Positions 57,085 to 62,240 of a stretch of DNA of 64,000 nucleotides are shown here, in pieces. Position numbers and translations under genes: made by a program. A model generated the notes under the pieces. That model was not told the origin of the DNA. It saw only the letters and a list, made by a program, of their open reading frames with translations, and ran no database searches. Numbering within the stretch: the first letter of the stretch is position 1; every line of letters begins with the position of its first letter. Source of the DNA: Psychrobacillus lasiicapitis (GTDB lineage: Bacteria > Bacillota > Bacilli > Bacillales_A > Planococcaceae); assembly GCF_006861795.1 (NCBI RefSeq), contig NZ_VDGH01000001.1, positions 314,117-378,116 on the forward strand, in the 5' to 3' direction.

Positions 57085-57828
57085 TTAGCCTAAACCTAAA
57101 GCATCCACTCTCACTTGTCTTACTTGCAGTACTTTTAGTGTAAGATCCACTACGATTTTCTCACGTAAAACACTAAACGATTCACCTACATTTGCAGGAC
57201 ATGGTGAAAAATCAAGCTCAAAGAAATCAGCACTTATTAATTCGCAATATGGCTGCTCATTATAATAGACATTATTTTCAAAGAAGAATTTATCCAAACG
57301 TGGGGTATGACCGTTTTTCGGATTAATAAACCGTGACCTGCTTTCGGATGAAGACCCAATTATCGGGAAAACAAAAAATTCCCCAGGAGTTAATTCTGCA
57401 AAACCAGAAAATGGTACAGTAGCAATTCGATCACGAATAACGCCATTACAATTCGAAGTAGCATATTCTATATCCTTTCGAATATACCCTTCTACAAACA
57501 ATTTAGCTCTTGTAACTGTACGAATATTACCATCACATGGATCCGTTCCAAAACGTACAGGAATTAGTTTACATTGCGTGAGAAAGACATCTTTAAACAC
57601 TCGTTTAATTTCACTTGCTGGTGGATTAAGGGGAATATTCGCTTCTACTACGATTTGAAGTGTAGTTTCTGCTAATACAACAGGAATTTTAATGATTGGA
57701 TTAACATTTGATGGAACTAAACAAGGTGTTGCTACTTCATCAGCTAGAGGTGTTAATGTCACTGCCTCAACTGGGCATGGGTTAACAATTGGACACTCTC
57801 CATTACTCATACTATTTTGTTCACTCAT
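57085..57828 (-). CDS. CsxC/SPOCS-like spore-surface protein, paralogue 1
   Basis: The 247-residue protein has an N-terminal Cys/Pro stretch (CPIVNPCPVEAVTLTPL), then VPVVLAETTLQIVVEANIPL-like, KRVFKDVFLTQCKLIPVRF, AKLFVEGYIRKDIEYAT, VPFSGFAELTPGEFFVFP, NEQPYCELISADFFELDFSP and KIVVDLTLKVLQVRQVRV. These parts look like the SPOCS (DUF3794)/CsxC exosporium group. ATG 57828 follows AGAGGAGGTGAT. A SigK-like -10 is upstream. Spore-coat or exosporium location is inferred. Confidence 0.75.
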   Translation of the reverse strand: MSEQNSMSNGECPIVNPCPVEAVTLTPLADEVATPCLVPSNVNPIIKIPVVLAETTLQIVVEANIPLNPPASEIKRVFKDVFLTQCKLIPVRFGTDPCDGNIRTVTRAKLFVEGYIRKDIEYATSNCNGVIRDRIATVPFSGFAELTPGEFFVFPIIGSSSESRSRFINPKNGHTPRLDKFFFENNVYYNEQPYCELISADFFELDFSPCPANVGESFSVLREKIVVDLTLKVLQVRQVRVDALGLG

Positions 57829-58987: not shown

Positions 58988-59728
58988 TTATAGCCCTAAT
59001 GCGGTAACTCTTACTTGTCTTATCTGAAGTACTTTTAATGTAAGATCTACTACAATTTTCTCTCGTAAAATACTAAATGATTCATCTACATCTGTAGGAC
59101 ACGGTGAAAAATCGACTTCGAAAAATTTTGCACTTACTAGCTCGCAATATGGCTGCTCATTATAAAAAACACTATTTTCAAAGAAGAATTTATCCAAACG
59201 TGGAATTTCACTATTTTGCGGATTGATGAATCGCGATCTACTTTCTGAGGAATCACCTAAAATAGGGAAAAGGAGAAAGTCGTTATCTGCCAAATCAGCA
59301 AAACCAGAAAATGGAACTGTGGCAATTCGATCACGAAGTACATCATTACAATTCGTTGTAGCATACTCAATATCTTTGCGAATGTATCCTTCTATAAACA
59401 ATTTTGCTCTCGTTACTGTACGAACCGTATCATCACACGATTCTTCTTCAAAATGCACAGGGACAAGTTTACACTGTGTCATAAAAACATCTTTGAATAC
59501 TCTTTTAATTTCACTAGCTGGTGGATTAAGAGGGATATCTGCTTCCACTACGATTTGAATGGTTGTTTCTGCCAATACCACAGGAACTTTAAGGATTGGG
59601 GTAGCAGGCGGTGGAATTATACAAGGTTTTGCTCGTTCATTACTTAATGGGGTTAATGACTTTGCCTCAACCGGACATGGAATAACATCAGGCCAATACT
59701 CATTGCTTGTTTTGATTTGCTCACTCAA
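58988..59728 (-). CDS. CsxC/SPOCS-like spore-surface protein, paralogue 3
   Basis: The 246-residue protein has the same order of motifs as paralogues 1 and 2 but more changes (VPVHFEEESCDDTVRTVTRAK, ADLADNDFLLFPILGDSSES). TTG 59728 is proposed as start because GGAGGAAATAATACT lies before it and the product then begins SEQ as in the paralogues. An ATG at 59749 with AAGGAAG is the alternative (253 residues). Confidence 0.72.
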   Translation of the reverse strand: MSEQIKTSNEYWPDVIPCPVEAKSLTPLSNERAKPCIIPPPATPILKVPVVLAETTIQIVVEADIPLNPPASEIKRVFKDVFMTQCKLVPVHFEEESCDDTVRTVTRAKLFIEGYIRKDIEYATTNCNDVLRDRIATVPFSGFADLADNDFLLFPILGDSSESRSRFINPQNSEIPRLDKFFFENSVFYNEQPYCELVSAKFFEVDFSPCPTDVDESFSILREKIVVDLTLKVLQIRQVRVTALGL

Positions 59729-59763
59729 AGTATTATTTCCTCCGTTCATTCTTCCTTACGTTC

Positions 59764-59981: not shown

Positions 59982-61850
59982 TTAAGTTAACTGCTGATTA
60001 ATAACCGTTTGGACTTGTAGCAGCTGGATTATTAATTCTATAACAATGTTTTGATGTATTGAATGAGAAAATTGTTCCTCTTTTAACGACACGGAATTTT
60101 CTTCTACTTTTATCCTTGGAAGATACTGAATACTTTGATGAATATTTCCTTCCATAAATAATTTCCCTTTTAATGCAATACGGTTCTTACCTGTCGATGA
60201 AGGAGAATATTTAGTTGGAACAAACTTGCAATTTATTAATTCAACAACTTTAGAAATTTCTTTTACCTTATAAACTTTCTCTTTAAATAAAACATCTTCG
60301 TCTAAACAGACTTCCACATTATATTCCCCTACTATTACTGGAACTCGAGTATATACATACTTGTGATTGGGATATGTTTTATCTGTTTCTCCTTCTTTCA
60401 TTGAAATTGAATTATGAATTGAGACGACAACAGCCCGATGGTACGCCTTCTGCTTGTTATTACTCTCTCGTTCAACACTTTTCTGACTCGTAGTGAAGAT
60501 AAGTTCATGTGATTTAAATCCAATTAGGTGGCAATATGGTTGTTCATGAAGATAAGTGACTGTATCAACTAATTTTGTGTCCAATTGAGGGGGCTTATTA
60601 TCAGATGGATCAATAAAAGTAAATGTCTTTTGATCTGTACTTCCGAATAACGGAGGATGGAGAAAGTTATCGATTTCTACGAAGGTAGAGAATGGGATTG
60701 TTAACTTTCTTAAACGTGTCTCAGTCTGTCCACTCAACTTATTTGATTGGTTTATTTTATCGTCTTCATAGTTATTTTGATAATCTTTATTTGAATCATC
60801 TACAATAGTGTCTGATGCTATTATCTCCTCCATTTCAAGATTAGGCTCAGACGGCGACACTATCTCCTGCTCCGCTTGATCTTCGATTTGTGGAACACAA
60901 GTAGTATTCGCTTCGGTTGAGATGGGAGGATAACGAAAATTATGGATCTTTTCAAAAAGAGAGAATGGGATTTTTATAGTCTTTTTGGACATTTTGTTGA
61001 GTTGATCAGTTTCATTTTGAAGATTGAATTCTTGTGTATCTTCTAGAACATCTAGCACTACCTCATCTTCCAATTCAAAGTTTAGCTCAGACTTTAATAC
61101 TATCTCCTGCTCCACCTGAGCTTCGATTTGTGGAACAAAATTAGTATTCGCTTCGGTTAAGATCGGTGGGTAACGGAAATTATGGATCTTTTCAAAAAGA
61201 GAGAAAGGAATTCTTATAACCTTTTTACTTACTTTTGGATATTTATCAGGGTCATTCGTAAGATTAAATTCTAGCGAATCTTCCATTTCATGGTTAGATT
61301 CAGACTTAAACACTATGTCTTGCTCATCTTGGACCTCGATTTGATAAACACTGTTCGTATTCGCTTCAATCGAGATTGGTGGATAACGGAAAGTATGGAT
61401 TTTCGCAAAGAGGGAAAAAGGAATTTTTATAGCCTTTTTGCTGACTTTCGGATGCTTAGCAGATTGAATAGTAGGCTCTTTTTTTATGTCATCGACAAAA
61501 GTATCATATTGCATCTTTCTCCTATGGCTTTCTCGTTTTTTGGGGAGGTCGGCAGTTTCGTTCCTTTTATACGCAACAAGTTTATCCTCTGTTTTTTCTG
61601 CAGTAAGTGAAGCTAAAACAGTATCACGTCCCTCTTTTTCCTCTGCTGGCAAATCATGAGTAGCCCCGGTAGCTGAAAAAGTAAAAACATTTTTTTGTGA
61701 AACATGCCTCTTTTGCATAGTTTCCAAGTCAAACCAGGGAAGGGGCAACTTCCCCTCGTTGTTCATATTATGAAAATCATGAGTAATAGCAGTCACGCTT
61801 ACTTTTTCGGGATTAAATTTTATTTTTGGTATAGATCGACCGTTAAACAT
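59982..61850 (-). CDS. Large CsxC/BC_2427-like spore protein with permuted module and repeats
   Basis: The 622-residue protein has no signal peptide or membrane segment. Residues 135-158, 206-229 and 286-309 repeat (K)(V/M)SKK-x-I-x-IPFSLF-x-KIH-x-FRYPP, and 379-400 is a fourth, weaker copy, with acidic linkers between. The C-terminal half holds EQPYCHLIGFKSHELIF (436-452), then VPVIVGEYNVEVCLDEDVLF (503-522), NCKFVPTKY (540-548), GKLFMEGNIHQSIQYLP (562-578) and IVIELIIQLLQVQTVI (602-617). The same parts occur in the three paralogues in another order. A role in spore coat or exosporium is inferred. Confidence 0.7.
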   Translation of the reverse strand: MFNGRSIPKIKFNPEKVSVTAITHDFHNMNNEGKLPLPWFDLETMQKRHVSQKNVFTFSATGATHDLPAEEKEGRDTVLASLTAEKTEDKLVAYKRNETADLPKKRESHRRKMQYDTFVDDIKKEPTIQSAKHPKVSKKAIKIPFSLFAKIHTFRYPPISIEANTNSVYQIEVQDEQDIVFKSESNHEMEDSLEFNLTNDPDKYPKVSKKVIRIPFSLFEKIHNFRYPPILTEANTNFVPQIEAQVEQEIVLKSELNFELEDEVVLDVLEDTQEFNLQNETDQLNKMSKKTIKIPFSLFEKIHNFRYPPISTEANTTCVPQIEDQAEQEIVSPSEPNLEMEEIIASDTIVDDSNKDYQNNYEDDKINQSNKLSGQTETRLRKLTIPFSTFVEIDNFLHPPLFGSTDQKTFTFIDPSDNKPPQLDTKLVDTVTYLHEQPYCHLIGFKSHELIFTTSQKSVERESNNKQKAYHRAVVVSIHNSISMKEGETDKTYPNHKYVYTRVPVIVGEYNVEVCLDEDVLFKEKVYKVKEISKVVELINCKFVPTKYSPSSTGKNRIALKGKLFMEGNIHQSIQYLPRIKVEENSVSLKEEQFSHSIHQNIVIELIIQLLQVQTVINQQLT

Positions 61851-61934: not shown

Positions 61935-62240
61935 AGTGTGGGTTTTTCGACGCACAGGACGTGCTAGTGGGGACGTTGCGACATGGAAGTCGCACTTTGG
62001 TCCCCGTCCTACCCCACTGATTGTTAGTTGTGTTCTACACGATGTGGGTCACACAGACGTTGCAAACGCTCTTTTATTTTGCGACTAGCTTTGCGCAGGA
62101 GCAACACGATGTTGCGTACTTAGTCTGGGATCATTTCATTGGGCGCATGCCAGCAGTTGATCTCCCACTTATCTTTTCGCTTTTCTTCAATCTTGAAGTC
62201 GGAGTCTTACTGCCCGTAAAGCGGGATAAATGTTTTTCAA
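61935..62240. repeat. GC-rich interspersed repeat with mini-hairpins
   Basis: This island carries GCAC-AGGAC-GTGC (61952-61964), GCGAC-ATGGAA-GTCGC (61978-61993), CTAC-ACGAT-GTGG (62035-62047) and GCAAC-ACGAT-GTTGC (62101-62115). The run TTGCGCAGGAGCA matches the element at 13302-13524, where the hairpin is absent. A frame at 62021-62257 lies inside it and lacks a ribosome site. The rest of spacer 61851-62428 shows no gene. Confidence 0.75.

Follow-up and report, generated by a model that had tools for sequence, protein, structure and literature searches.

A BC_2427-family protein beside CsxC paralogues in Psychrobacillus lasiicapitis carries their beta-domain modules in a non-circularly permuted order

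The three modules that build the CsxC-family proteins in the order A-B-C are arranged as B-A-C in a 622-residue neighbor, P0001, and this permutation was confirmed. Both kinds of gene lie in a 64,000-nucleotide stretch of the Psychrobacillus lasiicapitis genome, the whole of which is referred to here as the window. Our preferred reading, to which we assign a probability of roughly 62%, is that P0001 is a spore-surface scaffold of the BC_2427 family and that its six-stranded beta-domain is a non-circularly permuted form of the CsxC domain, itself remotely related to the SPOCS domain, with both orders sharing one fold.

The C-terminal end of P0001 is a ~240-amino-acid beta-domain made of the same three modules as the CsxC-family paralogues, whose three genes lie downstream of the BC_2427 gene on the same strand. 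The features of the locus are listed below, with residue numbers of P0001 in parentheses.

59982..61850, minus strand: BC_2427-family gene, 622 amino acids (P0001); open frame; PF25250 E = 8.6e-91, NF045793 314 bits
60717..61850, minus strand: N-terminal tail (1-378), with the conserved PW...MQ...Q motif region at its start and three strand copies within it
61377..61442, minus strand: tail copy 1 of strand B1 (137-158)
61164..61229, minus strand: tail copy 2 of strand B1 (208-229)
60924..60989, minus strand: tail copy 3 of strand B1 (288-309)
60483..60725, minus strand: module B (376-456), strands B1 and B2, first here and second in CsxC; hhalign E = 2.1e-12, AlphaFold strands
60396..60449, minus strand: lead-in segment of A (468-485, RAVVVSIHNS), found ahead of A in the A-B-C orthologues as well
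60111..60365, minus strand: module A (496-580), strands A1 to A3, second here and first in CsxC; hhalign E = 2.9e-17, AlphaFold strands
60003..60089, minus strand: module C (588-616), the final strand, last in either order; hhalign E = 2.1e-5
58988..59749, minus strand: CsxC-family paralogue P0002, order A-B-C; NF045794 196.6 bits
58085..58855, minus strand: CsxC-family paralogue P0003, order A-B-C; NF045794 199.2 bits
57085..57867, minus strand: CsxC-family paralogue P0004, order A-B-C; NF045794 203.4 bits

P0001 belongs to the BC_2427 family: NF045793 matched it at 314.3 bits against a cut-off of 200, covering profile positions 2-236 of 236, and the B-A-C order of this profile was followed in a single run from residue 380 to residue 616. 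PF25250 (DUF7852) likewise covered residues 379-616, nearly its entire profile (E = 8.6e-91). With the CsxC profile, NF045794, P0001 scored 72.9 bits, below the cut-off of 135, and its module order is also not that of CsxC; P0002, P0003, and P0004 each matched the whole of this profile above the cut-off (197 to 203 bits). Among named relatives, Psychrobacillus sp. NEAU-3TGS is the nearest to the window, at 98% in the domain. PF18094 (DNA polymerase beta N-terminal domain) reached E = 7e-7 in P0001, best at residues 261-314 of the tail, which we take to be a match to the repeated tail sequence. An Rfam Bacillaceae-1 RNA (RF01690, 41.9 bits; gathering threshold, 35) was also found at 62034-62139 on the minus strand, ~180 nt upstream of the BC_2427 gene start and on the same strand. 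The listed TTG start of P0004 (57867) is probably too far upstream, and an ATG at MSEQN, 13 codons in, better fits the alignment with P0003.

The sequence-only reading from which this work started had described the segments of the paralogues as permuted in P0001, and the positions it gave for these segments hold within 1 residue: LTIPFST at 383-389, EQPYCHL at 436-442, HELIF at 448-452, VPVIVGEY at 503-510, NCKFVPTKY at 540-548, KLFMEGNIHQSIQYLP at 563-578, and IVIELIIQLLQVQTV at 602-616. The order A, B, C that it assigned to the paralogues was recovered in all three (54-131, 142-214, and 229-246 in P0002; 50-127, 138-210, and 225-242 in P0003; 60-137, 148-220, and 235-252 in P0004); their block begins at 57085, as it had proposed, but is slightly longer, ending at 59749 rather than 59728. 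In a BLASTP comparison of P0001 with P0002, crossed matches were obtained for B (E = 6e-12) and for A (E = 4e-10), and the short C piece alone reached E = 0.15. Profiles were then aligned with hhalign, using 30 BC_2427 domains (30 of 33 rows, the three A-B-C orthologues described below being set aside) and 63 CsxC proteins (63 of 64 rows, one split CsxC piece being set aside). BC_2427 positions 121-205 matched CsxC positions 48-133 for module A (E = 2.9e-17), 1-81 matched 136-218 for module B (E = 2.1e-12), and 213-241 matched 218-246 for module C (E = 2.1e-5), and these complementary matches tile the CsxC domain. Since A and B trade places while C stays last, and no rotation of A-B-C gives B-A-C, the permutation is non-circular. 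The term "transposed module" used in the first reading was well chosen, and the sequence data extend it: the exchange of A and B is non-circular and family-wide, and a set in the CsxC order occupies the same orthologous locus.

The two orders separate two curated families, BC_2427/DUF7852 and CsxC, and the difference is therefore wider than this window. Across 32 named loci, the long proteins were B-A-C in 29 cases and A-B-C in 3, and the short proteins were A-B-C in 61 of 62 cases, the remaining one being a piece of a split gene. This split gene, at L082:10885-11698 in Lysinibacillus xylanilyticus SR-86, is the CsxC gene after the BC_2427 gene and is divided into overlapping frames of 108 and 173 amino acids, probably by a frameshift in the strain or its assembly. 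Among 81 further proteins with an A module, 6 were B-A or B-A-C, 42 were A-B or A-B-C, and in 33 A alone was detected. Three divergent B-A proteins adjoining CsxC genes (L115, L116, and L117; ~100 bits, below the BC_2427 cut-off) may represent an additional branch of the permuted family. The distribution of BC_2427 is patchy: of 200 genomes from the order, 21 had it above the cut-off, as did 1 of 299 from the phylum (the source genome itself) and 4 of 299 from the order around a Peribacillus genome, and 4 of the 36 Peribacillus genomes searched carry the gene. A CsxC-family gene lay no more than 1.3 kb downstream of the BC_2427 gene, on the same strand, in all 32 named loci, which were picked via BC_2427 and not via CsxC.

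Comparison with the SPOCS domain bears on which order came first. A SPOCS set from 27 of 30 loci with PF12673 matches in Bacillota aligned to CsxC as a single piece (50-157) running through A1, A2, A3, and B1, with 93% probability and a score of 47.3 (best of 59 column shuffles, 20.3). The same set aligned to BC_2427 as two exchanged pieces, 125-208 and 2-20, with scores of 31.8 and 22.8 (best of 59 column shuffles, 16.8), and 21 chosen distant A-B relatives gave a single-piece alignment to SPOCS at 88%. Because the SPOCS match is contiguous on CsxC but split and exchanged on BC_2427, these profile alignments indicate that A-B-C is most likely the ancestral order. The link is a remote one: the Pfam SipL model matched 9 of 63 CsxC proteins (best E = 0.0079) and 3 of 30 BC_2427 proteins (best E = 0.0017), P0001 gave no SipL match up to E = 5 in the Pfam search, and a SPOCS-domain query found no chain among PDB sequences.

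In three genomes, the BC_2427 gene itself is in the CsxC order: L091 (Peribacillus loiseleuriae), L092 (P. huizhouensis), and L093 (Paenibacillus sp. FJAT-29882, whose genome was classed in the same genus as the other two by genome search). Since the arrangement is present in three genomes, an assembly error is unlikely. A profile of these proteins matched BC_2427 in crossed pieces (E = 7.5e-40 and 2.4e-34; C, E = 1.4e-4) and CsxC in one run (50-250, E = 1.1e-21), and the two that were scanned, L091 (254.6 bits) and L093 (247.1 bits), both exceed the BC_2427 cut-off. Their N-terminus (KTPW...MQEIISKQINIVNSSRVQ) finds its best match outside the group in an Aeribacillus B-A-C protein (E = 5e-9). 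Sharing locus, N-terminus, and sequence family, the A-B-C proteins are orthologues of the B-A-C gene. A chimera with a CsxC gene was considered as their source and rejected, because modules A and B of these proteins each group within the BC_2427 clan (support, 1.0). Because a few related bacteria thus carry the BC_2427 gene in the usual order, one gene shows both arrangements, probably of one fold.

Whether these orthologues reverted from B-A-C or never left A-B-C is a closer question. In FastTree and quick IQ-TREE trees, the three A-B-C orthologues fall among Bacillaceae B-A-C proteins; the trees behind the tests given below drew on 11 of the 63 CsxC rows (every sixth). It is quite conceivable, if not the reading that we prefer, that they instead keep the original order as the sister of all B-A-C proteins, so that one exchange and no reversion took place. 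Such a tree requires one order change fewer, and an approximately unbiased (AU) test of the alternative that places all B-A-C proteins in one clade apart from the A-B-C orthologues did not reject it on A+B columns (P = 0.458, and P = 0.502 once 14 rows were added, 9 from chosen outgroups and 5 from divergent B-A-C proteins). Against it stand the nesting in the trees, the P value of 0.0498 obtained when the N-terminus, linkers, and C were added and these 14 rows dropped, albeit with segments chosen after the first trees, the nearness of the N-terminus to Aeribacillus rather than to Psychrobacillus (E = 0.07 only), and the B-A-C order of P. cavernae, which is classed in the same genus. Reversion from B-A-C is therefore favored at about 2 to 1, although it is not proven. 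As for a trace of duplication, the linker before A in the A-B-C orthologues matched the BC_2427 linker in all three (0 of 2,000 shuffles as good in each case), and the match of a supposed second copy after B was weak (76, 468, and 11 of 2,000 shuffles as good); BC_2427 columns 97-106 align at both places, before A and after B. Among the matches listed, none carried a complete A or a complete B module in duplicate.

Structure models suggest that the permuted strands may fill the same places as in the paralogue. The AlphaFold2 model of a CsxC protein (mean pLDDT, 74.9) places A1 at 52-78, A2 at 80-102, A3 at 109-130, B1 at 138-153, B2 at 201-215, and C at 225-247, and that of the permuted domain places B1 at 4-18, B2 at 64-79, A1 at 123-147, A2 at 151-173, A3 at 184-203, and C at 221-244. 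Confidence in the permuted model is low (mean pLDDT, 63.8, with three of five models near 45, and <50 over domain residues 24-60); within this model, the same six long strands appear as in the CsxC model, in exchanged order and with pairwise similar lengths. The connections differ, being 7 residues for A3-B1 and 9 for B2-C in CsxC and 43 for B2-A1 and 17 for A3-C in the permuted domain. VIA-align runs with either model gave Z scores of 2.8 or less, and a search of PDB sequences returned none for BC_2427 and nothing better than E = 0.95 for CsxC; these results do not by themselves mark a new fold.

From these models we infer that both orders build one shared fold. The exchange would have started from A (A1-A2-A3), B (B1-B2), and C, with A and its lead-in segment swapping with B and C being kept at the C-terminus. 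On the assumption that strand direction alternates, B would probably start and finish at a single end of the sheet, as would A together with its lead-in, and the swap would rewire loops at that end only. The A3-B1 and B2-C connections would be replaced by B2-A1 and A3-C; such rewiring needs longer connections, and the new ones are longer than the old. The swap would also set strand B1 at the start of the domain, adjoining the tail. It is possible, but in our judgment unlikely, that the pieces instead fold as separate small units (B on its own, and A together with C) with no common closed fold, which would amount to ordinary domain shuffling. The low confidence of the permuted model is compatible with this, as are the B2-A1 and A3-C connections, which are long and poorly predicted, as they would be between separate units. 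However, B has two strands and C has one, so that both need partners, the strand lengths pair up between the two models, and the SPOCS match spans the A3-B1 junction in CsxC.

The first strand block had been described as repeated four times. Three copies of B1 in the tail are indeed real (137-158, 208-229, and 288-309), but the fourth is the domain's own first strand (379-400), which differs (IPFSTFVEIDNFLHPP). At the DNA level, the tail consists in part of three 203-nt repeats, one per unit, of 74 to 76% identity at spacings of 213 and 240 nt, and each copy of B1 is followed by NF..PP or TF..PP. The copies are basic (net charge +5, +4, and +4, versus +1 for the domain copy), and the spacers are acidic (-9, -13, and -14). 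With a profile built from this window's copies, which favors close relatives, 6 of the 32 named long proteins showed tail copies (L063, 4; L064, 11; L065, 8; L066, 1; L067, 21; L069, 1), and the remaining 26, among them the three A-B-C orthologues, showed none; a stricter profile found fewer (L064, 9; L065, 5; L067, 10). The copies are confined to proteins with a B1-opening domain, but the proteins that carry them belong to one clade, the Psychrobacillus/Paenisporosarcina group, with 1 to 21 copies each. At L067:4502-11017, Psychrobacillus vulpis has a 2,172-residue open frame with 21 tail copies and a unit of ~80 residues.

The presence of tail copies makes strand exchange between subunits, with the copies as donor strands, a reasonable hypothesis. 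The sequence-only reading had gone further and suggested that permuted strands are exchanged between neighboring subunits and so link a coat lattice, a putative role that we regard as doubtful. Consistent with it, B1 stands at the domain start and is attached by the long loop of low pLDDT, the tail copies retain the B1 pattern while their charge turns basic, and up to 21 of them occur in a relative and none in the three A-B-C orthologues. On the other hand, the restriction of the copies to one clade tells against it, and since the other 23 B-A-C proteins are without tail copies, the permuted order does not need them. More speculative again is the combined scenario in which the module order of one orthologous gene changed from A-B-C to B-A-C and later back again without loss of the single beta-fold, and the freed B1 became a donor strand whose copies, up to 21 in a tail, cross-link the lattice; we consider this a long shot.

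Circular permutation by duplication and trimming, with the linker before A as a leftover C strand, can be dismissed as highly improbable: a conserved strand-like motif (VVV.IH) does lie between B and A, but the linker did not match C (hhalign E = 0.89 and 0.37), goes with A, given that it weakly matches the CsxC segment before A (E = 0.027 alone) and also stands before A in the A-B-C orthologues, and C is last in either order.

The designation "spore protein" in the first reading is supported by the CsxC neighbors, the profile link to SPOCS, and collagen-tailed relatives, and on these sequence grounds P0001 is most likely a spore-surface scaffold. Collagen-like runs occur in exosporium filaments. 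Seven of 69 proteins of at least 330 amino acids (L140 to L146) have an A-first CsxC-type N-terminal domain followed by a collagen-like GXX run of 75 to 441 residues, and these may be anchors of spore filaments. Upstream of CsxC genes, CATANNNT boxes, which we take to be close to the sigma-K -10 consensus, were present in 34 of 45 cases (14.9 expected; at most 23 in 200 shuffles), and before BC_2427 genes there was no excess of them (8 of 19; 5.3 expected), both counts being of distinct placeable genes, a subset of those in the loci. P0003 and P0004 (minus strand) have AACCGCATACTATA, presumably a sigma-K-like box, in common at ~75 nt or less upstream of their listed starts, 58855 and 57867. 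P0001 would assemble in the outer layers of the spore together with the CsxC proteins encoded next to it. CsxC was named from the purified exosporium of Clostridium sporogenes (PMC4942563), and a passage of PMC10867305 was also counted toward a spore-surface scaffold role. The Brevibacillus "exosporium protein C" was considered as a CsxC relative and set aside, as the available parts of PMC5335551 and PMC13308469 established no link.

Within the BC_2427 family (NF045793; PF25250, DUF7852), P0001 has the same domain across the full profile and the same B-A-C order, and it is set apart by its B1 tail copies, a trait of the Psychrobacillus/Paenisporosarcina group. The BC_2427 profiles carry no function, PF25250 being a domain of unknown function. 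The CsxC family (NF045794), encoded by the adjacent genes, has the same three modules with clear sequence similarity but differs from P0001 in its A-B-C order, its length of ~250 to 280 amino acids, and the absence of a long N-terminal tail. Since both families are curated, the existence of this kind of protein is not new. In the open literature, with subscription papers mostly outside its scope, we found nothing on BC_2427 together with the exosporium, on circular permutation in a spore coat protein, or on CsxC joined with SPOCS or DUF3794, nothing related on a permuted exosporium protein, and no mention of DUF7852 among the matches listed. The SPOCS domain (PF12673, DUF3794), a spore-coat assembly domain of SpoVID, CotE, and SipL, aligns remotely with A1-A2-A3-B1, and the A3-B1 junction that is contiguous in SPOCS is broken in the BC_2427 protein; SipL has three DUF3794 domains and a LysM domain (PMC6436350). 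The little-studied CsxC and BC_2427 spore-surface proteins would thereby be tied to coat-building SPOCS domains.

Structures related by swaps of segments have been described as a class (PMC2213659). The nearest parallel is the major capsid protein of phage BPP-1, a shell protein with a non-circularly permuted HK97-like fold in which two of three elements are swapped and the third is fixed; its authors, citing Vogel and Morea 2006, call non-circular permutation rare, and they could recognize no similarity in sequence to the other topology and report that exchanges made by engineering were non-functional (PMC3863775). In contrast, the similarity between BC_2427 and CsxC is clear and both orders occur among orthologues, although the shared fold here is inferred from models, and we claim no homology to the capsid protein. 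Because both orders occur in neighboring genes and among orthologues with clear similarity, the survival of a fold after an exchange of its pieces becomes traceable and can be tested with small proteins. If true, the double order change would mean that a protein of the spore shell has undergone a natural non-circular permutation that is reversible and can be traced in sequence. In the BPP-1 case the sequence trail has been lost, whereas between BC_2427 and CsxC it has been retained.
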